Assembly: GCF_009696175.1 (NCBI RefSeq)
Contig: NZ_VUMM01000008.1
Location: forward strand, 1 to 64,000
Direction of reading: 5' to 3'
DNA length: 64,000 nucleotides
DNA from: Floccifex porci
GTDB lineage: Bacteria; Bacillota_I; Bacilli_A; Erysipelotrichales; Erysipelotrichaceae
Part shown: one piece after another, positions 23,846 through 36,247 of the stretch
How the letters are laid out: every line of letters begins with the position of its first letter
Position numbering within the stretch: position 1 is the first letter of the stretch
Notes under the pieces: generated by a model
Seen by the model: only the letters and a program-made list of their open reading frames with translations
Databases searched by the model: none
What the model was told of the DNA's origin: nothing
Made by a program: the position numbers and the translations under genes

Positions 23846-25129
23846 TTATTTTGTCTGAATTTTTTGTTGTATATCAGTTAATTCCATTAACGTATTATCA
23901 CTGTGATTGATAACAATGCGATATATTTCTGCATCAATTTGCGATATGATTTCATCATATTGAGTAAATAAATCCATTGGTGTTCCTTGCTTCATTACTT
24001 CATCTAACATGATAAACTGAAAGTTAGAATCTCCTGGACTGTCATCGGACAATAAATCCATCGTTTCTTTTGAACTTGCTACGTTTTGTAGAACAGGAAC
24101 TCCCTGAGATAATGTAATAATTTCGTTTTGACATTCTTCACTATATGTTAATTCTTTTAAAAATTCCCATGCAATTTCTTTATTCGAACTAAAACGAGAA
24201 ATCCCCATGGAAAGTGTATTAATTTGAGATGTGTTGTCTCCATGTGTTCCAGCTGGAAGCATAAGAGCATCCCATTCAAAGTTGGAATATTTTTTTACAC
24301 GCCATGGATAGGGTTTATAAGCACGATATTCACTGAATTTCATCGGACAGAAAGCCACTTTTCCCTCATCAAAATCTTGTGAATTAACTTCAATATTTTG
24401 ATTAAGAGCAACTAATTTTTTCATAAAATCTATGCTTTCAACCATTTCTGTAGAATTTAAATGAAGATTTCCATTTTCATCCATAATTTCACAATTATTG
24501 GAATGCGCTGCCAATAACCAGTCATAGCCATAGACACCAAATTGATCCAGATACCCATCTCCATCTGTATCTTTTGTGACTTGTTCACAAATAGTATAAA
24601 AATCAGACCATGTCCATGTATTAACAGGAAAATCAATGTTTTCTTGTTCTAATAATGTTTTATTGACATACATTAAAGTGGGTACACTTTCAAATGGCAA
24701 TGCATATTGACAATCTTTATATTGTCCGGCTTTTAAACTTGATTGATAAAATACATTTTCATTAATTTCATTCATATACGATTCTAAATTCAATAATAAA
24801 CCAGTTTGTGCAAACATATCAAAACTCTCCGAAGGCACCATAAAAACGTCGGGAATATCTTGTTGCAAAGATTTTTCCAGAATCCATTCCACATAGTCAT
24901 CTTTAGTAATTCCAGAAATGAGTTCTACTTTCACATTAGGGTATTTTTTTTCAAAACGTGCAATGGCATTTTCATAGATTTGGTAACAATTGCCATTTGG
25001 AACATCCCAGTTACTACCTGCAAACATGCCAAAAGTTATGGTGATGGTTTTATGGGATTGATAATTCACAAATATTAATGCACTGATAACAATCGCAAAA
25101 GCCAAGCCAATTTTAGTGATTTGTTTCAT
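23846..25129 (-). CDS. Extracellular solute-binding protein (family 1), membrane-anchored
   Basis: A 427-residue MalE-like sugar-binding protein. The N-terminus has one hydrophobic segment but no lipobox cysteine, so it is probably anchored by an uncleaved helix. The body shows the usual NAIARFEKKYPNVKVELISG and later repeats of the family. It is the last gene of a four-gene operon and overlaps the response regulator by 17 bases. No ABC permease or ATPase is nearby, so it likely serves in sensing, not transport, corresponding in position to LevT of the S. mutans LevQRST system. Confidence 0.85.
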   Translation of the reverse strand: MKQITKIGLAFAIVISALIFVNYQSHKTITITFGMFAGSNWDVPNGNCYQIYENAIARFEKKYPNVKVELISGITKDDYVEWILEKSLQQDIPDVFMVPSESFDMFAQTGLLLNLESYMNEINENVFYQSSLKAGQYKDCQYALPFESVPTLMYVNKTLLEQENIDFPVNTWTWSDFYTICEQVTKDTDGDGYLDQFGVYGYDWLLAAHSNNCEIMDENGNLHLNSTEMVESIDFMKKLVALNQNIEVNSQDFDEGKVAFCPMKFSEYRAYKPYPWRVKKYSNFEWDALMLPAGTHGDNTSQINTLSMGISRFSSNKEIAWEFLKELTYSEECQNEIITLSQGVPVLQNVASSKETMDLLSDDSPGDSNFQFIMLDEVMKQGTPMDLFTQYDEIISQIDAEIYRIVINHSDNTLMELTDIQQKIQTK

Positions 25130-25817
25130 ACTGGCCTCGTTCTAAGTTTTTGTCCATTGTTTTTCCACTTTGTAGATACCAGATGGCCAATTGTGTTCGA
25201 TCTCGTAATTGAAGTTTATCTAGAATCACGCTCAAATAGTTTCGAATGGTTCCTTCTGAAAAATGTAAATGCATTGCAATTTCTTTATTTGATAAGCCAT
25301 CCGCTACTTTTTCAATAACTTTCCATTCTGTTTTAGATAAATCAGATACATTTCCTTGTGGACGCAAGACAGGCTCTTGTTTGTTTTCGTGATTCGCCAT
25401 TTCACTGAAAAGTTTGATAGCTTTGGCAGCAACTCTTGGATGGATGATGCTTCCTCCTTCATAAACCGTCTGAATGGCTTTGCTTAATTCATCTAAAGAC
25501 GATCCTTTTAACAAATAGCCACTGGCTCCAAATTTTAAGGCATTATAGATATATTCATCGTCATCAAAAGTCGTTAATACGATGACATTGATTTGTGGAT
25601 ATTTTTCTTTGATAATTTTTGTACAATTAACACCATCCATTTCTGGCATTCGAATATCCATTAAAATTATGTCAGGAATTTCTTTTTCAATGCTGGTTAA
25701 TACATCTTTTCCATTACTGACTAAATCAATGATTTTAAAATTGGGATTGCTGCTTAAAATAATTTTTAAACTTTCACGAAGTAGTTGCTGATCATCAGCG
25801 ATAATAATTTTGATCAT
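25113..25817 (-). CDS. Two-component response regulator (NarL/LuxR type)
   Basis: A 234-residue regulator. The receiver domain has the phosphoacceptor Asp in IILMDIRMPEMDG (near residue 55) and the conserved Lys in GYLLKGSS. The LuxR-type helix-turn-helix VADGLSNKEIAMHLHFSEGTIRNYLSVILDK is near residues 170-200. Its ATG overlaps the kinase stop codon as ATGA. With the kinase and two binding proteins it forms a likely sugar-sensing circuit whose target may be the fructanase gene at 30837. Confidence 0.93.
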   Translation of the reverse strand: MIKIIIADDQQLLRESLKIILSSNPNFKIIDLVSNGKDVLTSIEKEIPDIILMDIRMPEMDGVNCTKIIKEKYPQINVIVLTTFDDDEYIYNALKFGASGYLLKGSSLDELSKAIQTVYEGGSIIHPRVAAKAIKLFSEMANHENKQEPVLRPQGNVSDLSKTEWKVIEKVADGLSNKEIAMHLHFSEGTIRNYLSVILDKLQLRDRTQLAIWYLQSGKTMDKNLERGQYETNH

Positions 25818-27133
25818 GTGATGTCTCCTGTTCTTAATGGAATTTCGGCAATAATAATAAATCCATCGTATCCATATACTTGTAAACGACCTTGTAGAAT
25901 TTCAATTCTCTCTTTCATGTGATGTAATCCAAATCCTTCTTCTATATGCTGACAACCAATTCCATCGTCTTCAATGATGATAACTAATTTGGATTTATTG
26001 TCTTCATACGCAAAAGATACAAAAATATTTTTAGCTTTTCCGTGTCGAATCGCATTAGTCAAGCCTTCTTGTACAATTCGATAAATAACTTCGTCCATAT
26101 CTTGTTGAAAACTAACAGTATCGATGTGATATACAAATTTAATATTCACATTGGATACTGTTTCAAAATCAAGAATCAGTCTTTCTAATGCTTCTTTTAA
26201 AGTAAATCTTTCCAAAGCATCGGGTCTTAATTTTTCAACCGAACGACGAACATCGGTTAAACCTTGACGAGCGGTTTGCGATAAAATTGATAACTGTTTT
26301 TTGGTAGCTTCTTTATCTATGTCCATAATCACAATGGCTGCATCAATTCCTACAGATAGTCCTGTTAATGTATGTCCCAAAGTATCATGGATTTCACGAG
26401 CCAATCGATTTCGTTCTTTGGTTTCTCCCATTTTTTCTTGTAGAATCGCATATTCTTCTAATTGTTTATTTAAATTTTGGAGTTCTTCATTCAAAGCTTT
26501 GATACGCTTGTTTTCATCTAATTCAAAAACCATTATTGAAAAGATTTCCAAAATAAAGAGAATCATATTCAATGTATTTAATGCACTATCAATAAAATTC
26601 AAAACCAATTTCCCTTTACTGGAATACCATAAAATATATTCACTTAAAGGAATGGGATGAATAATAGGTAATATATTGGAATTGGATATCATATATAATA
26701 AAATAGCCAATCCTAAAAATATATATAAGTCTTTATTGTCTCTGTGCTGATATAAAATAAAAACAATGAAAAGTAATACAATGGAATTACTTGAAAGCTG
26801 TAAAAAGTAAACAATCAAAGCGCAACACACAAAAGATAAACTTGTTAGTATTCGACTTTGTATAGGCGTAGTTGTATTTCTTTTTTCAATAAACATAAGT
26901 GCAACAAATAGAAAAAAGAAAATATTTACTAATACGATAGTTTGTGTATAAGAAAAATATGGAATAGCGCCTATGGTTTGAATAAATTCACTGGCTTGCT
27001 GGGTAGCAATTATTTTATTTGTCGTAGCATAAATAACCATTCCAATAAATTCTATATGAATGAAATTGATACAAACTAAAACCAGAAATAAGACAAAAAT
27101 AAAATGTTTGTAATTCATTTTTTTCGTATTCAT
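25814..27133 (-). CDS. Sensor histidine kinase (HisKA_3 type)
   Basis: A 439-residue kinase with about six membrane segments in residues 10-200, a short coiled coil, then the dimerisation helix REIHDTLGHTLTGLSVG with the phosphorylated His near 245, and the ATPase domain with N box QEGLTNAIRHG near 350 and G box IEDDGIGC. The start at 27133 overlaps the stop of the upstream binding-protein gene as TAATG, with GGGGTGG before it; a GTG nine bases upstream is less likely. It lacks a large outer domain, so ligand sensing probably comes from the associated binding proteins. Confidence 0.92.
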   Translation of the reverse strand: MNTKKMNYKHFIFVLFLVLVCINFIHIEFIGMVIYATTNKIIATQQASEFIQTIGAIPYFSYTQTIVLVNIFFFLFVALMFIEKRNTTTPIQSRILTSLSFVCCALIVYFLQLSSNSIVLLFIVFILYQHRDNKDLYIFLGLAILLYMISNSNILPIIHPIPLSEYILWYSSKGKLVLNFIDSALNTLNMILFILEIFSIMVFELDENKRIKALNEELQNLNKQLEEYAILQEKMGETKERNRLAREIHDTLGHTLTGLSVGIDAAIVIMDIDKEATKKQLSILSQTARQGLTDVRRSVEKLRPDALERFTLKEALERLILDFETVSNVNIKFVYHIDTVSFQQDMDEVIYRIVQEGLTNAIRHGKAKNIFVSFAYEDNKSKLVIIIEDDGIGCQHIEEGFGLHHMKERIEILQGRLQVYGYDGFIIIAEIPLRTGDIT

Positions 27134-28107
27134 TATTGCCACCCCGCCAATGAAAAGTCATTAATGTTTTCGGATGTAATCAAGGTTACTGAGATTTTTG
27201 TTTCATTTGTTTTTAATGGTTTCTTTTCCAGTAACTGGTATGCAATTTCAATGGCTTTCTGTCCCATTTGAATAGGAAATTGAGCCGAAGTGGCTCGCAT
27301 TTTTCCATCTTTAATTAATACCTTTGTTTCAGGCGTTCCATCCACTCCATAAACCAGTACATCTTCTCTTCCATAATCTTCTAAGGCAGCCATAGCACCT
27401 AAAGCACTTGGATCATTTAAAGCCATTATCACATCAAAAGAAATGTCTTCATTTAATATAGAAAAAATACATGGCATCGCATTTTCCAATTGGCCTTCAC
27501 ATTCTTTCCTGGCAACTATTTTATATTCAGGATGCGATTCAATGGTATCCACAAAACCTTGAATACGAGACGAACCCGAAGCTGTTTGTGAATGTTCTAA
27601 TAATACTATATTCGCACTTTCTTTTTGTGTCATCATGTCTTGTGCAGCTAAAACACCAGCTAAATAATTATCCGATGTAACTGTATAACTGACATAGTCA
27701 TTGGAATCTAAATTCGTATCTACGGCAATGACAATAATACCTTTTTTTCGACATTCTTCTAATACGTCATGGAGTTTTGTATTATCAATAGGATTGACAA
27801 ACAAAACATCGATATCCATTTGAATAAGACGTTGAATGTGTTCAATTTGTTTGTCTACACTTAAAGCAGGATCCATTGTATAAAGTACATCCCCTCTTTG
27901 TTTGATTTCATTTTCAATTTCATCGTTAACGACTTCAAAAAATGGGTTATTCATCGTCATATATGTAGCCCCAAATTTAATAGGTTCTTTTGTTTGATTT
28001 TGTAAAAAAAAGAAAGATGATTTTTGTAGAAAAGAGTATCCTGTTAATACAAGTAATAAAGATATAACAACAATCATACATTCAATAATTCTAAATTTGT
28101 CTTTCAT
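27133..28107 (-). CDS. Periplasmic-binding-protein-like sugar sensor (RbsB family), membrane-anchored
   Basis: A 324-residue protein with one N-terminal membrane helix (about residues 8-27) and a type I sugar-binding fold: NNPFFEVVNDEIENE near 55, IDVLFVNPID near 97, VIAVDTNLDS near 123 and VYGVDGTPETKVLI near 262. It is first in the operon and is translationally coupled to the kinase gene. No transporter genes accompany it, so it is likely the ligand receptor of the kinase, like LevQ in S. mutans or XylFII in clostridia. It has no ribosome binding site; its -10 box ends seven bases before the ATG. Confidence 0.87.
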   Translation of the reverse strand: MKDKFRIIECMIVVISLLLVLTGYSFLQKSSFFFLQNQTKEPIKFGATYMTMNNPFFEVVNDEIENEIKQRGDVLYTMDPALSVDKQIEHIQRLIQMDIDVLFVNPIDNTKLHDVLEECRKKGIIVIAVDTNLDSNDYVSYTVTSDNYLAGVLAAQDMMTQKESANIVLLEHSQTASGSSRIQGFVDTIESHPEYKIVARKECEGQLENAMPCIFSILNEDISFDVIMALNDPSALGAMAALEDYGREDVLVYGVDGTPETKVLIKDGKMRATSAQFPIQMGQKAIEIAYQLLEKKPLKTNETKISVTLITSENINDFSLAGWQ

Positions 28108-28246: not shown

Positions 28247-29590
28247 ATGGAACGATTTATTTTAAATGATTTACTGAAATGGAAGAATTCCAACTATCGT
28301 AAGCCATTAATTTTAAAAGGTGTTAGACAAGTGGGAAAAACTTGGATTTTGAAAGAATTCGGAAAGCGTTATTATGAAAATACAGCTTATTTCAACTTTG
28401 ATGAAAATGAAGAATATAAACAGTTTTTTGAAACTACAAAAGATGTAAATCGTATTTTACAAAATCTTATGATGGCCAGTGAACAGAAAATTATTCCAGA
28501 AAAAACTCTCATCATCTTTGATGAGGTACAAGATTGTCCAAATGTTATTAATTCCATGAAATATTTTTGTGAAAATGCACCACAATATCATATTGCCTGT
28601 GCCGGTTCTTTACTTGGAATTGCTTTGGCAAAGCCTTCTTCTTTTCCAGTTGGAAAAGTTAATTTCATGCAAATTGATCCTATGACGTTCACTGAATTTT
28701 TATTAGCGAATGGCGATAGAAATTTAGTTGAATATTTAGAATCTGTGGATTCTATTGAACCCATCCCTGATATTTTTTTCAATCTTTTATACGAAAAATT
28801 AAAAATGTACTATGTAACAGGTGGTATGCCCGAATCTGTTAAAATGTGGACAGAAGCAAGAGATATTGAAGCTATGCAGAAAGCTTTATCCGATATCATC
28901 AGGGCTTATGAACGTGATTTTGCAAAACATCCAAATGTCAAGGAATTTCCAAAAATTTCCATGATATGGAAATCCATTCCATCTCAATTATCCAGGGAAA
29001 ATAAAAAATTTATCTACAAAGTTGTTAAAGAAGGAGCAAGGGCTCGCGAATACGAAAATGCTTTGCAATGGCTGGTTGATGCCAGATTGGTTCAAAAAGT
29101 CTATCGTAGTACAGCTCCCGGTCTTCCAATTTCAGCTTATGACGATCTATCTGCTTTTAAAATTTATTTAGTTGATGTTGGATTGCTTCGTCGTTTAGCA
29201 CAGCTTGCTCCTACTTCTTTTAAAGAAGGCAATCGTCTTTTCACTGAATTCAAAGGTGCATTGTCTGAAAACTATGTTCTACAAACTTTAATAACACAAT
29301 TTGAAGTTATGCCTCGCTATTGGACACAGACGAATCCTCCTTATAAAGTAGATTTTCTTATTCAACGTGAAAATGATATTTTTCCAGTTGAAGTAAAATC
29401 CGAAGCGAATACATCCAGCAAGAGTTTAAAGAAATTCAAAGAATTATTTCCTGATAAAGTAAAACTGCGTATACGTTTTTCTCTTGACAATCTAAAACTA
29501 GATGATGATGTACTAAATATTCCACTATTTATGGCCGACCAAACAAATCGAATCATTGGATTGGCATTGAAACAAAAATATAATGTTTAA
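28247..29590 (+). CDS. AAA ATPase with DUF4143 C-terminal domain
   Basis: A 447-residue ATPase. Walker A is in LKGVRQVGKTWILKEFG near residue 24, Walker B in TLIIFDEVQDC near 90 and sensor 1 in HIACAGSLLGIAL near 120. The C-terminal half has the DUF4143 and endonuclease-like stretch YKVDFLIQRENDIFPVEVKSE near residue 370 (Asp...Glu-x-Lys, PD-(D/E)XK-like). Such genes are very common in gut bacteria, occur in many copies and have no agreed function. The start has AAGGAGC upstream. It is a single gene with its own terminator. Confidence 0.88.
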   Translation: MERFILNDLLKWKNSNYRKPLILKGVRQVGKTWILKEFGKRYYENTAYFNFDENEEYKQFFETTKDVNRILQNLMMASEQKIIPEKTLIIFDEVQDCPNVINSMKYFCENAPQYHIACAGSLLGIALAKPSSFPVGKVNFMQIDPMTFTEFLLANGDRNLVEYLESVDSIEPIPDIFFNLLYEKLKMYYVTGGMPESVKMWTEARDIEAMQKALSDIIRAYERDFAKHPNVKEFPKISMIWKSIPSQLSRENKKFIYKVVKEGARAREYENALQWLVDARLVQKVYRSTAPGLPISAYDDLSAFKIYLVDVGLLRRLAQLAPTSFKEGNRLFTEFKGALSENYVLQTLITQFEVMPRYWTQTNPPYKVDFLIQRENDIFPVEVKSEANTSSKSLKKFKELFPDKVKLRIRFSLDNLKLDDDVLNIPLFMADQTNRIIGLALKQKYNV

Positions 29591-29625: not shown

Positions 29626-29696
29626 TTCTTTTAAATTCTTTTGTAACAAACTGTATTTTAATATGTCATAGAGATGAAAGAAAAAGAGGTGTAGAA

Positions 29697-30151
29697 ATGG
29701 ATGATTTTGAATAGATTACTGTGATTATTTTGATGTTGTTTTTCGATTTGTTCTTACTTTATGTAAAGATGAATCCTTAGCAGAAGAAATTACACAGGAA
29801 ACTTTTTTAAGGCTCTAAAGAAAATTGATTCATTTCGAGGGGATTGTAAAATAAATGTCTGGCTTTGTCAGATTGCTAAAAATACATATTATACATTAGC
29901 CAAAAAACAAACTCGTTATGCAGATTATTCTTTAGGACAAATTCCATTTGATGAATCCATTGAAGAAAAAAAGATCAAAAAAAGAACAAGTTCTTCAAAT
30001 TTATAAAATAATTCATGAGATGGAAGAACCCTATAAAGAAGTATTTTGGATGCGAACTTTTTCGAATTTATCTTTTAAAGATATTTCTTTATTCTTTGGT
30101 AAAACTGAAAGCTGGGCTCGTGTCACGTATAATGTGCAAAATGTAAAATAA
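29697..30151 (+). pseudogene. Broken ECF-type RNA polymerase sigma factor
   Basis: Three successive frames together encode a sigma-70 ECF protein. After MDDFE a TAG stop interrupts. Region 2 continues as DYCDYFDVVFRFVLTLCKDE and SLAEEITQETF. A frameshift near 29808 leads to ALKKIDSFRGDCKINVWLCQ, and another near 29985 leads to region 4, EEPYKEVFWMRTFSNLSFKDIS and FFGKTESWARVTYNVQ. A ribosome binding site (AAAGAGG) and ATG at 29697 remain. At least one stop and two frameshifts separate it from a working gene, although the following anti-sigma gene is intact. Sequencing error in A/T runs could explain the frameshifts but not the stop. Confidence 0.85.
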
Positions 30152-30164
30152 AGGAGGTGTTAAA

Positions 30165-30806
30165 ATGAAATATCCATGTTCTATTATTCAAGATTTACTT
30201 CCGTTGTATGTAGATGAAATCTGTAGTGAGGAAAGTAAAAAAATTGTCGAAGATCATCTGTCTCAGTGTTCAATTTGTAAAGAAATATATGATTCTATGT
30301 GCAATTTGAAACAAGAAGATATTCATGATTATCATGAATCTCAAAGAATTAAATCTTTGAAACAGGTTAAGAAAAAAATACTTTATAAACAAATTTTAAT
30401 TGGATTATCTTCTATTGTTTTATTATTTGTTCTCGGTTTTGGAATTATGACAGGTTTAAAAAATGAAATTGAAATTGTGAATCCAGATAATTGTGTTTCT
30501 GTTTCTATGATCAATGGTTCTCTAACAACTCGTCTTCAAGGGAGTCGCATTTATGAAGCTACCATTAAAAGAGTTTCAATTTCTTCAAAAGATTATTTAT
30601 TCTTTTTTGTTAAGAATTCACAATGGGATGCATTAACTACGAATGAAGAAATATATTCTGAATTAATTCTATGTCCAGAAGATAAAAATGCAGATGAAAT
30701 TGATGAAGTCTATTATTTTGCAGGAGATTATGAAGGTATTGAGTCAATGAATGAAATAGATCTCCAAAAAATTATTCAAAATTCCAAGCTTCTTTGGAAA
30801 AAATAA
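30165..30806 (+). CDS. Anti-sigma factor with zinc-finger (zf-HC2) domain
   Basis: A 213-residue membrane protein. The N-terminal zinc motif is His-x3-Cys-x2-Cys in DHLSQCSICKEIYDSM (near residues 30-45), one membrane helix spans about residues 72-95 (LIGLSSIVLLFVLGFGIM), and the rest is extracellular. It would hold the neighbouring ECF sigma factor at the membrane. Since that gene is broken, this protein has lost its obvious partner. The start has AAAGGAGG upstream, 13 bases after the end of the sigma pseudogene. Confidence 0.85.
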   Translation: MKYPCSIIQDLLPLYVDEICSEESKKIVEDHLSQCSICKEIYDSMCNLKQEDIHDYHESQRIKSLKQVKKKILYKQILIGLSSIVLLFVLGFGIMTGLKNEIEIVNPDNCVSVSMINGSLTTRLQGSRIYEATIKRVSISSKDYLFFFVKNSQWDALTTNEEIYSELILCPEDKNADEIDEVYYFAGDYEGIESMNEIDLQKIIQNSKLLWKK

Positions 30807-30836: not shown

Positions 30837-33800
30837 TTATTTACGATGTTTCTTTTTGTAGACTAAAATACTTGCAATACCTGCTAAACTAGAAACCATA
30901 GCTGTTGTCCATACTTTTAAGTGTGATGTTACACCTGTGTTTGTATCTTTTTTATTGGATTGACTTTCTTTATCATTAGAAGGTTTTGGATCTTCTTTTT
31001 GTTTCTTAACTAAAGCATTTTTAGCTTCCTGTAAATCTTTAATACAAGCATCGATTTCTTCCTGTGTACCAGATTTCAGATAACTTTGTGCATTTTGAAG
31101 TACTTTTTCCAAATTCTTCCAAGACTTAGATGTATATTCATCTTTATTTAAAGTAGAGATATCCATTGCTTGTTTTAAAGCCTGTACATTTACCAATTGT
31201 TTTTTAGCTTCTTCAATGGATTGAATATGTTGTGCTATTTCTTCCTGTGTACTTGTTTCATCTCCTAATGCTTGTTTCGCATTATAGATGGCATCTTTAT
31301 AAGCTTGTGCACTCTGTGTTGTATAGTTTTCTTCGACAATTGTTTCTTCTACAAGACTTGTTAAAGTATTCCAGCTGCTGTCTTTGACTATAAAATTCTT
31401 AAAGGAAACATTTCCATCCCATAATCCCAATCCAACATGTGGATTTTCATTGAAGAAATCCATTGTGGAATCAAAAGTATGTTCAATGACTTTCTGATTA
31501 TCAATGATTACGATAATTTGATTGTTTGTCTTTTGAATCTGTACATGATGATATGCATTGTCATTGATGGCTTTGTCTAATGTTCCTGTGGCATAATTTC
31601 CACCACCAAAGGCAAACAGACGAACTTCTGTTCCATTTGTGAGCTGAACTGAATAAGCACCTCCATTATCATGTGGATTGCTTCCATTTGGCGCAGCTAC
31701 AAACGCATTGACCAGTCCCTTATCGTATTTAATATCAAAGGCGATTGTGTATTCACGGGAAGCCAGTGGAGACTGTGATAAATAGTAGTCATTATTTCCT
31801 GTATTAGACACTTTTAATTCATCTTCTTCAATTGTCCAGTTACCAGATACACCTTCTAAGTCTTTAACATTTGTCTTAAAATTATTATTCGCAACCGTTA
31901 CTTTAATTTCTTTTGTGATATCACCGGCTTTAACTGTAATAGTGGCTTCTCCTTTTAAGATACCTTTTAATGTAATGACACCATTTTCAATGGATGCTTT
32001 TACGATCTTGGAATCAGAAGATTCTACACTGATTTCACTTTCGACTTCCGTTGGTACCAGCCATGCATTGATTGTTGCTGTATCAGAAGTATATAGATGT
32101 ACATTTGTGCTACTTAAACCAATATCCACTGGTTTTGTTGGTGTCTGTTTATCTGTCCAGATGGTTTTCATTGGATACACTGTTATATCCGCTTTACTAT
32201 CCTGTCCTAATGAATAAACTTCTAATCCATTACTTGTAGCAGATGGGAAAATCTGTGCAGCTCCTGTTACACTGTAATTGGATGTGAAGGCTTCTACACT
32301 GGAACGATCAACATAAATATGTAAATCAATGCTTCCATCGCTGTTTCTTGTCACATTGGATTGATTCATCACATTCAGACTGGAACGAATGATCGTTCCT
32401 GACTGGCTTCGATCAATGGTGAATGTCTCATTGTTCAAATTGTATTTGATAACTGTCTTTTCACCATTTCCAACACGTACATTGAATCCAACTTCTGTTG
32501 TTGCTTCTCCTGGCATAAAATGCGCTACAATTTCATAAGAAGATTCATTGAAATCTTTGAATAAATCATTGGAGGCACTGATTGTTTCGTTATTCAATGT
32601 AATAGCTTTTTTAGTATCTCTTAGACTTTCATATTCTTTGACTGGTGTTTGTGTCAGAATATAATTTCCATTGGAATCCATTGTTAATCCAAGTTGCAGA
32701 TTTAAATTGAACGTTCCATTGAAATCCTGTCCCACTGTATTCGCTACTGCATTACAGAAGCCATCTGCCCATGTATTCATCCAGTTAAGTTCCACCAATT
32801 CTGGAATTGTTGGATTTTCTTTTGTTCCAAAGTCTTGTACATAATATGTCATTGCCGCATAGGAATCATTTCCAAAGTTCATGATTCCATCACTTGTTTT
32901 ATAGGCTTCATCCGGTACAAATGTCCATTTTCCATCCACTTCTTTAAAATCACCGATCTTGTAGTAACGTCCACCTCTGGATAATACCCATTTTGTTTCT
33001 TCCTGATATTGGATTGGATATAAATCCGGGCATTCTGTATGTAGATCAGCATAAGTGGATTCACATTCCCAGTTAATCAAATCAGTTGAAGAATAAATAC
33101 GAAGTGGTCCACCAGCTACAACCATAAACCATTTATTTTCATATTTGAATACTTTTGGATCTCTGAAGTCTGGTACATTCAATGGATCGTTGACCCAGTC
33201 GGCTACAACTAAATCTGTTTTTGTCCATGTGTTTCCATCTTTTGAAGTTGCAACTTTAATTCTTTGCCCATTTCCATCCGCTGTAATGAAGGCAATCAAT
33301 CCACCTGTATTATCTTCAAATAAACCAGATGTGTTATTTTCATCTACGACGATACATCCAGAGAACATGGCACCATTGGCATCTGGATACAGCGCAATAG
33401 GCTGATCTGTCCAGTGAATCAAATCTGTACTAGTGGCATGGGCCCAATGCATAGGTCCCCATACTGTATCATCATAGAACTGATAGAACATATGATAAAC
33501 CCCATTGTAGTATACTAAACCATTTGGATCATTCGCCCATCCTTCTTTAACTGAATAATGATACTGGTCTCGATACGTTTCATTGTAGTAGATTTCATCA
33601 TCTTTATAGCGATGCACATTCACTCGATAGACAACTTGTGCACTCATTCCATCTTTTTCAGCCGTTGAAATAACTGTTAAATAATTAATACCATCTTTGA
33701 TTGGAATACTATCATTAGTTGTATATTGATTTCCATTTTCATCTTTAATAATGACAGAATCATTTCCTGTACAATTCAATTTTACCGATTCTACTTCGTG

Positions 33801-36146
33801 TTCTACATATTGAAGAAGCATTGGTTCTGTTGAACGGAACTGTGAAGAATCCGTAATGGCACGAGTTCCTTTGTCTGTTTCCACTGTAATATTGGACAAC
33901 AATGGATTAAAGCTATCATCAAATTCTTTATAGTATGTATTCTGGAAAGTGACTTTTGAATTAAAGTTCAACAATCCAAAGTAACCAGAAGTCAATATCG
34001 TTGTCTGTCCTAAATTGTCTCTTTGAAGTGTATAGTCTCCCAGACTGGCTACTAACTGGTCATTGACATAATATAGAATCCATTCATTATAGGCGACAAC
34101 TTTTAATGTATACGTATCCGCTTTTCCCACTGTTTTTTCAGCAATCAGCTGATTGGCGTTATTAGCCTGCCAGCGCCAGAACTTGACATTTCCATTTTCG
34201 GCATTGACATTGACCGCATAAGCTTCTTTTGTAGATAAATCGTTATTGCTTCTGAATACTAAAGCTGCACACCCTTTATCAGAATCAAATTTGATATCTG
34301 TCTGATACACAAAATTTGTTCCTGTTACTTCTGAAACCAGGAAAGCATCTCCCTTATCTGTGGCATCGCTATATAAACCATTTTCATTAATTTCCCATGT
34401 TCCATTGTTATAAGCCAGATTACTTAGATTTGTTTTAAATCTTTCATCCAATTCCAGACTTGTCAAATCACTTGAGAAATCGCTACGATCAAGGAACTGT
34501 ACATTGGAGAATGTTGCCTGAGAATTAAAGGACAATAAACCAACATAGCCACCTTCCCAGTTGGAAATTGTTCCTGTAATTGTAGAAACATTAGAGGAAC
34601 CGACATTATTAAATGAATATGTAAATTCTCCTGTTTTACTCATTTCCACTTTTAAATGAAGAGGCTGACTGATATCAATATTCATATTATTTTTGGTCTC
34701 ATTTGTCATACCTGTATCACTGAAGCCCGTACCAAAAACACGGAAGAAATCATTTTTCCCCATTCTTTGAGAATCCAAATTAGCACAATACCATTTCATG
34801 CCTGGATTCGATTTATTTTGAACACCAAATACCAGCCCAGCAGATTGAATGGCATTTGTTCCAGTAAACTGTAAATCCGCTTCCCAGATAAAGTCATTGG
34901 CCTTTTCTGTATCCAACATCGCAAAGTGATCGCCACCTGAATTTGCCAGTGTGATATTATTTCCATCAACTGTCATTGGACTCGATCCAACATTGACAAA
35001 ATTGGTTTCGTATGGAGAAGCCTCTACTGGCGTTGTCATTGTAATATTGGAAAAAGAAGCACTGCTATCAAATGCCAAAGCCCCTAAATATCCACCTGTA
35101 TAATTTGTGAGTGTAGTAGATACTGTATGCGTATTAGCATCATTATTTCCCACTGAGAAAGTGACAATACCTTCTTCCGTTACATCCAGTTTCATATGAA
35201 TTGGTTGTGTTTTGTCAATATCTTTAATTGGTGTATATGAATTGTTTTCTCCAATACCTGCACCATTCACACTGAATACACGAATCTGTCCAGCTCCGTT
35301 CAGATCATTAAAATTAAAGTTTGCACCTAACCAGCTGGCACCTGGATTATTGAAATCCTGAATTCCAAAAGTTAAAGCGGCACAGCCTCCATTGATCAGA
35401 TTGACATCAGCTTCGTATGTAAAAGCTTTTACAGATTCTACTCCACTTAACAGGGCATGTGCATCTCCTGGTAACCCATAGATGGTTGTCCCTTCTACAT
35501 TGGCATAACCTTGTTTTAATGAATCTCCCTGAATAAGGATATTCGAGAACTCAGCCGTGGAGGAATAGGTCATAAAACCAAAATCTCCACCATTATAATT
35601 GTCATTTAAATCGCCTTCACAGACTAATTTGTCATTGATGAAATACTGTAAATGTTTATTTTGTACAACTACTTTCATATTAAATGTTGACGTTAAATCA
35701 ATAGAATTGTCTTTAAAAAAAGTATTCGCACTTCCATTTTTCCCAGGACAACCCAAATCACTATCAAGTCCATATCCCCAAACACGTGCTGGAACGTTCC
35801 AGTCAATTTTTCCATGGACATTGGCTTTTAATGAATCATTTGTATTGTCACTTCGTATTCCAAATACCAAAGCAGCGGATTGTTGTTCATTTGGATTGGT
35901 AAAAGTAACATCGGCACTGAATGTAAAATTGGTTTGTCCCTGTACCGTTGCCAATCTTAGAAAATTATCTCCTCCATTATTTTCGATAACCACTTTAGGA
36001 ATTCTAGATTCTAGACTTAAAACATTTTGTGTTTGTGTACTTTTTGCCTTATTTTCCTGGGCATTCAGTACGATAGGCGTATATACAATCATTCCATTTA
36101 ACAACATGGAAGCGGATATGGCCCCTTGTAAAGCTTTTTTTAACAT
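30837..36146 (-). CDS. Giant cell-wall-anchored GH32 fructanase (levanase/inulinase type)
   Basis: A 1769-residue exoenzyme that should cleave fructans. Order: signal peptide (about 1-30), four related concanavalin/LamG-like modules (about 45-760, each with an AALVFG or AALTFG strand), a cadherin-like sandwich (about 765-845), the GH32 domain with nucleophile Asp873 in WANDPNG, Asp996 in FRDP and acid/base Glu1038 in TECPDLY, a Big_2-type Ig domain (about 1340-1430), a fifth sandwich module, two FIVAR-like helical repeats (about 1610-1715), and a C-terminal DTNTG, membrane helix and KKKHRK tail resembling a sortase signal. The DTNTG lacks the usual LPxTG Leu-Pro. Start preceded by AAAGGAG. 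Confidence 0.9.
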   Translation of the reverse strand: MLKKALQGAISASMLLNGMIVYTPIVLNAQENKAKSTQTQNVLSLESRIPKVVIENNGGDNFLRLATVQGQTNFTFSADVTFTNPNEQQSAALVFGIRSDNTNDSLKANVHGKIDWNVPARVWGYGLDSDLGCPGKNGSANTFFKDNSIDLTSTFNMKVVVQNKHLQYFINDKLVCEGDLNDNYNGGDFGFMTYSSTAEFSNILIQGDSLKQGYANVEGTTIYGLPGDAHALLSGVESVKAFTYEADVNLINGGCAALTFGIQDFNNPGASWLGANFNFNDLNGAGQIRVFSVNGAGIGENNSYTPIKDIDKTQPIHMKLDVTEEGIVTFSVGNNDANTHTVSTTLTNYTGGYLGALAFDSSASFSNITMTTPVEASPYETNFVNVGSSPMTVDGNNITLANSGGDHFAMLDTEKANDFIWEADLQFTGTNAIQSAGLVFGVQNKSNPGMKWYCANLDSQRMGKNDFFRVFGTGFSDTGMTNETKNNMNIDISQPLHLKVEMSKTGEFTYSFNNVGSSNVSTITGTISNWEGGYVGLLSFNSQATFSNVQFLDRSDFSSDLTSLELDERFKTNLSNLAYNNGTWEINENGLYSDATDKGDAFLVSEVTGTNFVYQTDIKFDSDKGCAALVFRSNNDLSTKEAYAVNVNAENGNVKFWRWQANNANQLIAEKTVGKADTYTLKVVAYNEWILYYVNDQLVASLGDYTLQRDNLGQTTILTSGYFGLLNFNSKVTFQNTYYKEFDDSFNPLLSNITVETDKGTRAITDSSQFRSTEPMLLQYVEHEVESVKLNCTGNDSVIIKDENGNQYTTNDSIPIKDGINYLTVISTAEKDGMSAQVVYRVNVHRYKDDEIYYNETYRDQYHYSVKEGWANDPNGLVYYNGVYHMFYQFYDDTVWGPMHWAHATSTDLIHWTDQPIALYPDANGAMFSGCIVVDENNTSGLFEDNTGGLIAFITADGNGQRIKVATSKDGNTWTKTDLVVADWVNDPLNVPDFRDPKVFKYENKWFMVVAGGPLRIYSSTDLINWECESTYADLHTECPDLYPIQYQEETKWVLSRGGRYYKIGDFKEVDGKWTFVPDEAYKTSDGIMNFGNDSYAAMTYYVQDFGTKENPTIPELVELNWMNTWADGFCNAVANTVGQDFNGTFNLNLQLGLTMDSNGNYILTQTPVKEYESLRDTKKAITLNNETISASNDLFKDFNESSYEIVAHFMPGEATTEVGFNVRVGNGEKTVIKYNLNNETFTIDRSQSGTIIRSSLNVMNQSNVTRNSDGSIDLHIYVDRSSVEAFTSNYSVTGAAQIFPSATSNGLEVYSLGQDSKADITVYPMKTIWTDKQTPTKPVDIGLSSTNVHLYTSDTATINAWLVPTEVESEISVESSDSKIVKASIENGVITLKGILKGEATITVKAGDITKEIKVTVANNNFKTNVKDLEGVSGNWTIEEDELKVSNTGNNDYYLSQSPLASREYTIAFDIKYDKGLVNAFVAAPNGSNPHDNGGAYSVQLTNGTEVRLFAFGGGNYATGTLDKAINDNAYHHVQIQKTNNQIIVIIDNQKVIEHTFDSTMDFFNENPHVGLGLWDGNVSFKNFIVKDSSWNTLTSLVEETIVEENYTTQSAQAYKDAIYNAKQALGDETSTQEEIAQHIQSIEEAKKQLVNVQALKQAMDISTLNKDEYTSKSWKNLEKVLQNAQSYLKSGTQEEIDACIKDLQEAKNALVKKQKEDPKPSNDKESQSNKKDTNTGVTSHLKVWTTAMVSSLAGIASILVYKKKHRK

Positions 36147-36216
36147 TTCTTCTCTCCTTTAAATGTAATATTTGTTAATATTATTGTAATTTTATTCAAT
36201 TTTCATTTAAAGTTAA

Positions 36217-36247
36217 GTTTGTCACAAACAAAGATGACATTTGTCAT
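36217..36247. promoter_or_regulatory. Two inverted repeats upstream of the fructanase
   Basis: GTTTGTCACAAAC (36217-36229) and ATGACATTTGTCAT (36234-36247) are adjacent dyads about 75-100 bases before the fructanase start. They are candidate binding sites for the response regulator or for catabolite control; neither matches a site I can name. Confidence 0.4.

Follow-up and report, generated by a model that had tools for sequence, protein, structure and literature searches.

The XylFII-LytSR system of Clostridium beijerinckii is a two-component pair modulated by a membrane-linked binding protein, and in Bacillus subtilis a single regulator, LevR, controls both a man-family phosphotransferase system (PTS) and a levanase, encoded by levDEFG-sacC. 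LevQRST, which has been studied mainly in oral streptococci, is among the few known signalling systems in which two binding proteins serve as co-sensors; in the tooth-decay bacterium Streptococcus mutans it turns on the digestion of fructans. In this species the levTSRQ operon is followed by levDEFG, which encodes a man-family PTS; the binding proteins LevQ and LevT are tethered to the membrane and no ABC transporter is encoded nearby, and in 2011 similar operons were reported from just six other species (PMC3043104). The kinase LevS belongs to the HPK7 class and LevR is a NarL-type regulator (PMC3353171), while fruA requires a 14-bp dyad at −72 to −59 that is the likely LevR target (PMC9241797).

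In this study, we revisited a four-gene operon of Floccifex porci, which lies in the window, that is, the whole stretch of 64,000 nucleotides analysed (contig NZ_VUMM01000008.1, positions 1 to 64,000). We consider it highly likely that the operon encodes a four-component sensor of the LevQRST type, which responds to fructose and/or breakdown products of fructan and drives the fructanase gene next door and a PTS operon in trans. On the minus strand, from position 28107 to 23846, there are four overlapping open reading frames:

27133..28107, minus strand: gene 1 (LevT position), RbsB-like binding protein, predicted to be extracellular (Pfam Peripla_BP_4, E 5.5e-51)
25814..27142, minus strand: gene 2 (LevS position), HisKA_3 histidine kinase (HisKA_3 8.8e-19, HATPase_c 1.9e-7)
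25113..25817, minus strand: gene 3 (LevR position), NarL/LuxR-type response regulator (Response_reg 3.5e-28, GerE 6.5e-16)
23846..25129, minus strand: gene 4 (LevQ position), MalE-like binding protein, predicted to be extracellular (SBP_bac_1/8 3.4e-28)

A preliminary description had read these genes as an RbsB-like and a MalE-like protein, anchored by one helix each, that enclose a kinase and a regulator in a single coupled operon devoid of transporter genes. The Pfam domains bear this out, as do the overlaps of 10, 4 and 17 bp; no transporter genes were found inside the four-gene operon, no ABC permease genes near it and no known RNA elements between 23 and 37 kb of the window. The products of genes 1 and 4 each have a single hydrophobic N-terminal helix without a lipobox, and a loose lipobox pattern is found in none of 37 gene 1 homologues and in 4 of 37 gene 4 homologues. 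The gene 2 kinase has approximately five to six hydrophobic membrane segments and is the sole HisKA_3 kinase in the home genome (2.02 Mb, 98.8% complete); its phospho-acceptor block, REIHDTLGH, is invariant across 16 aligned homologues. For gene 3 the best NCBIfam match is NarL, and among 37 homologues the residues D8, D9 and D54 are invariant and the helix-turn-helix SEGTxRNYxSxxLxKLxLRDRTQLAIW is nearly so.

Kinase homologues with 31–48% identity are present in about half of the 59 relatives from the order of the window, the Erysipelotrichales, and also in Breznakia and in five Anaerostipes/Lachnospiraceae genomes. The order binding protein–kinase–regulator–binding protein is identical in 37 of 37 copies read, which comprise the window, 30 others of its order, Breznakia and the five Anaerostipes/Lachnospiraceae genomes. 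A man-family PTS with the order IIA-IIB-IIC-IID adjoins the sensor genes in 32 of the 35 copies with enough flanking DNA; it is missing there in Breznakia (L007), G015 (L041) and G242 (L142), and also in the window. In five relatives (L005, L045, L047, L050 and L058) a GH32 gene adjoins the sensor unit. From these neighbourhoods it follows that the unit consists of the sensor and a man-family PTS, sometimes with a fructanase, and the window operon, judged against its relatives, has been left without its usual PTS neighbour. A gene for an IFSDVDGTLL-type (HAD-like) phosphatase also recurs beside the sensor/PTS unit (L005, L044, L054, L058, L141, L143 and others), at times divergent from it and with the operator region in common.

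In the class and phylum samples, no LevS-like match from outside the order of the window pointed to a four-gene operon, and none of the matches in these samples was streptococcal. The more distant kinases looked at in the class sample (L140, L144 and L145) have no binding-protein genes beside them and were not considered further. When plasmids were searched for the LevQRST of streptococci or Lactobacillus salivarius, the kinase was matched only in part and the binding proteins that turned up were unrelated; a model of Streptococcus LiaS had no match in 395 genomes. One plasmid protein deserves separate mention: WP_338802811.1 of Butyrivibrio fibrisolvens plasmid pNP243 (L109:5664-8876; 1070 aa) combines a GGDEF diguanylate cyclase domain with PTS EIIC and RbsB-like domains, an architecture that would suit a sugar sensor for c-di-GMP built from a PTS permease and a binding protein; its annotation names no more than a subunit of a fructose PTS.

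The giant GH32 fructanase that had been placed beyond the promoter end of the operon is indeed there; it begins 2.7 kb past the 5′ end of the operon, on the same strand. The gene and its promoter region contain the following features:

30837..36146, minus strand: GH32 fructan hydrolase of 1769 aa, secreted, predicted target gene (Glyco_hydro_32N 6e-51, 32C 4e-24)
36189..36216, minus strand: candidate fructanase −35/−10 (TTAACT, 16 bp, TAAAAT; consensus scan, 9 of 12 matches, the number of such sites being near chance expectation)
36212..36225, minus strand: degenerate second site GTGACAAACTTAAC with the left half-site kept, 22 bp downstream of the operator start
36234..36247, minus strand: putative LevR operator ATGACAAATGTCAT in the fructanase promoter, one of two exact copies in the 2.02-Mb genome
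36256..36276, minus strand: intrinsic terminator of the gene upstream of the fructanase

The protein has N- and C-terminal GH32 domains with the catalytic motifs NDPNG, FRDPK and ECPD, its nearest solved relatives are exo-inulinases (8i12 among them), and it is the sole GH32 protein encoded in the home genome. Positions 36217-36247, which had been suggested as the binding site of the regulator, contain the perfect ATGACAAATGTCAT followed, 22 bp downstream, by the half-site. The putative operator is located directly past the terminator of the upstream gene and directly before the candidate −35 element. Between the sensor operon and the fructanase lie an AAA_14/DUF4143 ATPase gene (28247-29590, plus strand), which matches the PADLOC candidate family PDC-S01 (E 5e-184), and a decayed ECF sigma-factor gene (29660-30164, plus strand), of which recognisable fragments remain in shifted frames, with stops; the latter adjoins an intact zf-HC2 anti-sigma-like gene (30165-30806, plus strand).

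The second perfect copy of the palindrome in the home genome is found on another contig (C12, L072:7173-7186), where it is followed by a gene for a small membrane protein, a small gene that matches no Pfam family and the genes of a man-family PTS in the order IIA-IIB-IIC-IID, so that two extra small genes stand between operator and PTS. This PTS shares 79–84% identity with the one that adjoins the sensor operon in G024, and the two genomes have in common a block running from dnaK-dnaJ through the PTS to a glycosyltransferase gene (L072:3313-7186 versus L043). The four sensor genes are inside this block in G024 only, whereas the home copy lies beside the fructanase. We would therefore amend the preliminary description by a second probable target, the man-family PTS on the other contig. 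Both targets, the GH32 fructanase and the levDEFG-type PTS, are predicted from the operator only, and the regulon would then correspond to that of S. mutans, whose two known targets are fruA and levDEFG. The suggestion that a fructan-sensing circuit is likely is thereby well supported, since the same rare 14-bp site fronts both the sole fructanase and the levDEFG-like PTS.

In the mechanism that we propose, the tethered products of genes 1 and 4 would bind extracellular fructose or fructan fragments and, within the membrane, influence the kinase. This in turn would phosphorylate the gene 3 regulator, presumably at D54, and the regulator would contact the palindrome ATGACAAATGTCAT, usually together with a weaker site 21–23 bp downstream. 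It would then activate the adjacent fructanase gene and, in trans, the man-family PTS operon, whose products would import the released fructose, while fructose freed by the fructanase could be sensed again and give rise to positive feedback.

The nature of the ligand is the point at which this mechanism has its strongest competitor, namely that the operon belongs to the LevQRST family but senses something else, for example mannose or an oligosaccharide, with the fructanase as one of several outputs. The AlphaFold model of the gene 1 product (mean pLDDT 92.8) has a helix at residues 2-38 followed by a type-I binding-protein fold; its best match in the PDB is the ribose-binding protein 2ioy, and its nearest solved relatives by sequence are ribose-binding proteins too. 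N53, D130, R181, N231, D256 and Q276 are conserved in 36–37 of 37 homologues, and F56, which aligns with the ribose pocket, is almost invariant in the family as well; in RbsB, the positions of these seven residues have pocket roles. The RbsB arginine beside the conserved aspartate is T, A or S in the gene 1 family, and because of this replacement the sugar should differ from ribose, although sequence does not fix which one it is. Taken together, this suggests a working monosaccharide site with an altered preference. A distant relative, PDB 2x7x, also matches gene 1 by sequence (E 6.8e-18), and we take it to be BT1754, a hybrid two-component sensor of Bacteroides thetaiotaomicron. In BT1754, fructose is bound by an RbsB-type extracellular domain and drives genes for fructan use (PMC3404733). 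For gene 4, the model (mean pLDDT 88.1) shows a long N-terminal helix and then matches oligosaccharide-binding folds; the nearest solved sequence is an arabino-oligosaccharide-binding protein, and others bind cyclo-gluco- and other oligosaccharides. As the fold matches of both proteins are spread over many sugars, the fold leaves the ligand undecided. Our best guess is that gene 1 takes fructose and that gene 4 takes either a fructo-oligosaccharide or fructose. The kinship of gene 1 with ribose-binding proteins and of gene 4 with binders of other oligosaccharides, and the lost arginine, would suit another ligand, as would the response of S. mutans LevQRST to mannose as well (PMC3043104). However, the only exact operators in the genome stand at the fructanase and at a mannose-family PTS, and GH32 adjoins the operon in five relatives, so that we regard a different ligand as unlikely.

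A less probable explanation, which we consider doubtful, is that the palindrome is the site of another conserved regulator of fructose genes and that the four-component system controls something else. The distribution of the putative shared operator, ATGACAWWTGTCAT, bears on this directly. When levD-like promoters were compared side by side, ATGACAAATGTCAT or ATGACATTTGTCAT was seen in nearly all of them. With at most one mismatch, the palindrome is present upstream of 29 of 31 levD-like, 4 of 6 GH32 and 12 of 38 levT-like genes, compared with 11 of 657 other genes, and several of these 11 have their intergenic region in common with a lev gene. For each gene, 320 bp of upstream DNA and 60 bp of the gene itself were scored, and some closely related genomes are included in the counts. 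An unbiased k-mer comparison, from which near-duplicate genomes had been removed, returned TGACAAATGTCA as the top 12-mer (17 of 24 versus 6 of 657). The commonest arrangement in relatives includes a second, weaker site 21–23 bp downstream. Across 60 genomes we counted 37 occurrences of the perfect pattern, as against 4 of the pattern read backwards, and perfect sites are found in 21 of 29 relatives that have the kinase but in 3 of 30 that lack it (p 1e-6), where all of them are inside open reading frames. The home genome has exactly two, at the GH32 promoter and before the levDEFG-like PTS operon. In favour of another regulator, the palindrome was not found at the promoter of the window sensor operon itself within three mismatches, and, since the sites are mostly at levD, they accompany both the PTS and the kinase. 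On the other hand, their presence tracks the kinase, they are found at levT promoters too, and the home genome and G015, both without an adjacent levDEFG, carry the site at a PTS elsewhere; in addition, the recognition region of gene 3 is nearly invariant, like the palindrome. We did not find the palindrome in the literature searched on the LevQRST system.

A few further sites should be mentioned here. In the Lachnospiraceae genome where GH32 adjoins the operon (L005), the site is a poor one with three mismatches, which, like the missing PTS neighbour of the window operon, counts against our reading. In G560 (C111, L151:5591-5604), a perfect palindrome lies 31 bp before a different pair of HisKA_3 kinase and NarL-type regulator, which is divergent from an ABC transporter operon. 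Breznakia pachnodae (L007:13320-13360) has the near-copies ATTACATTTGTCAT and, about 22 bp further on, GTTACATTTGTGAA; these stand between the end of the sensor operon and a PTS_EIIA_2 gene, which takes the place of a man-family PTS. The strict consensus of the cre site for CcpA was found in 4 of 31 levD and 2 of 6 GH32 upstream regions and was absent at the window promoter, and because of this rarity and absence we make no claim on cre sites.

That an orphan sensor operon and a fructanase are neighbours by chance is very improbable. Two unrelated genes and the decayed sigma-factor gene do intervene; however, the single HisKA_3 kinase and the single GH32 gene of the genome are 2.7 kb apart, the GH32 gene has an exact operator, and the same adjacency recurs in the five relatives named above. 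XylFII-LytSR, which had been put forward as a comparison, shares with this locus a membrane-linked binding protein beside a two-component pair, but it has a LytS-type kinase, a regulator of another class and one binding protein, whereas the HisKA_3 kinase, the NarL/GerE regulator and the two binding proteins found here rule out a three-component sensor of that type for practical purposes.

How the LevQRST-type sensor and its PTS came to be separated can be approached from the protein trees. In the PTS tree, the home genome joins G024 (82% identity), while in the sensor tree it joins G015 and Breznakia, both of which have no adjacent PTS, and shows 47% identity to G024. We have dropped the claim of a horizontal replacement of the sensor operon, as sensor identities just as low (44–60%) are seen in other pairs of genomes whose PTS are similarly close. 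Relocation and replacement of the operon are inseparable because sequence change is much faster in the sensor proteins than in the PTS. In G015, a perfect site (C14, L104:6559-6572) is located about 170 bp before a mannose-type PTS of the order IIAB-IIC-IID, and as its sensor operon is without the usual PTS, it is possible that the regulon has been rewired. A broader reading, for and against which we see the balance as even, is that sensing of the LevQRST type is widely distributed among Erysipelotrichales and gut bacteria of the Anaerostipes type and uses one near-invariant operator, that sensor operon and PTS have come apart in a branch to which the home genome, Breznakia and G015 belong, with the regulon acting in trans, and that the targets are the fructanase here and other PTS types elsewhere, sensor and targets being exchangeable as modules.

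The LevQRST kind of system is itself already known, and what is added here is the predicted operator and the split arrangement of sensor and PTS. With this architecture in about half of the sampled relatives of the order, and with a sharply defined 14-bp operator, the fructan response of these bacteria should be predictable from sequence, and the way in which a single kinase is governed by two binding proteins can be tested directly in this system.

Compared with the described systems, the window operon agrees best with LevQRST of S. mutans. The likeness that had been pointed out extends to the gene order, to an HPK7/HisKA_3 kinase with approximately five membrane segments, to the NarL-class regulator, to the helix tethers of both binding proteins in the absence of an ABC permease nearby, to the PTS neighbours seen in relatives and to the two targets, a GH32 fructanase and a man-family PTS, which here are predicted from the operator. 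A dyad of 14 bp before the promoter of the fructanase gene is another common feature; it would lie near −65 to −52 relative to a predicted start here and is at −72 to −59 for fruA, a likeness in length and position. All the properties of LevQRST that can be read from sequence are thus present except for the adjacent PTS, which is what leads to a LevQRST-type reading; we infer the kinship with the streptococcal system from architecture. The differences are that the PTS here is on another contig with its own operator, whereas it is adjacent in S. mutans, and that the fructanase here adjoins the sensor operon. BT1754 resembles gene 1 in its RbsB-type extracellular domain but is a single hybrid protein with a fused sensor domain, another kinase and regulator architecture and no second binding protein. 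LevR of B. subtilis, in spite of its name, is a sigma-54 activator with PTS regulatory domains and is unrelated to the NarL-type regulator of the window.
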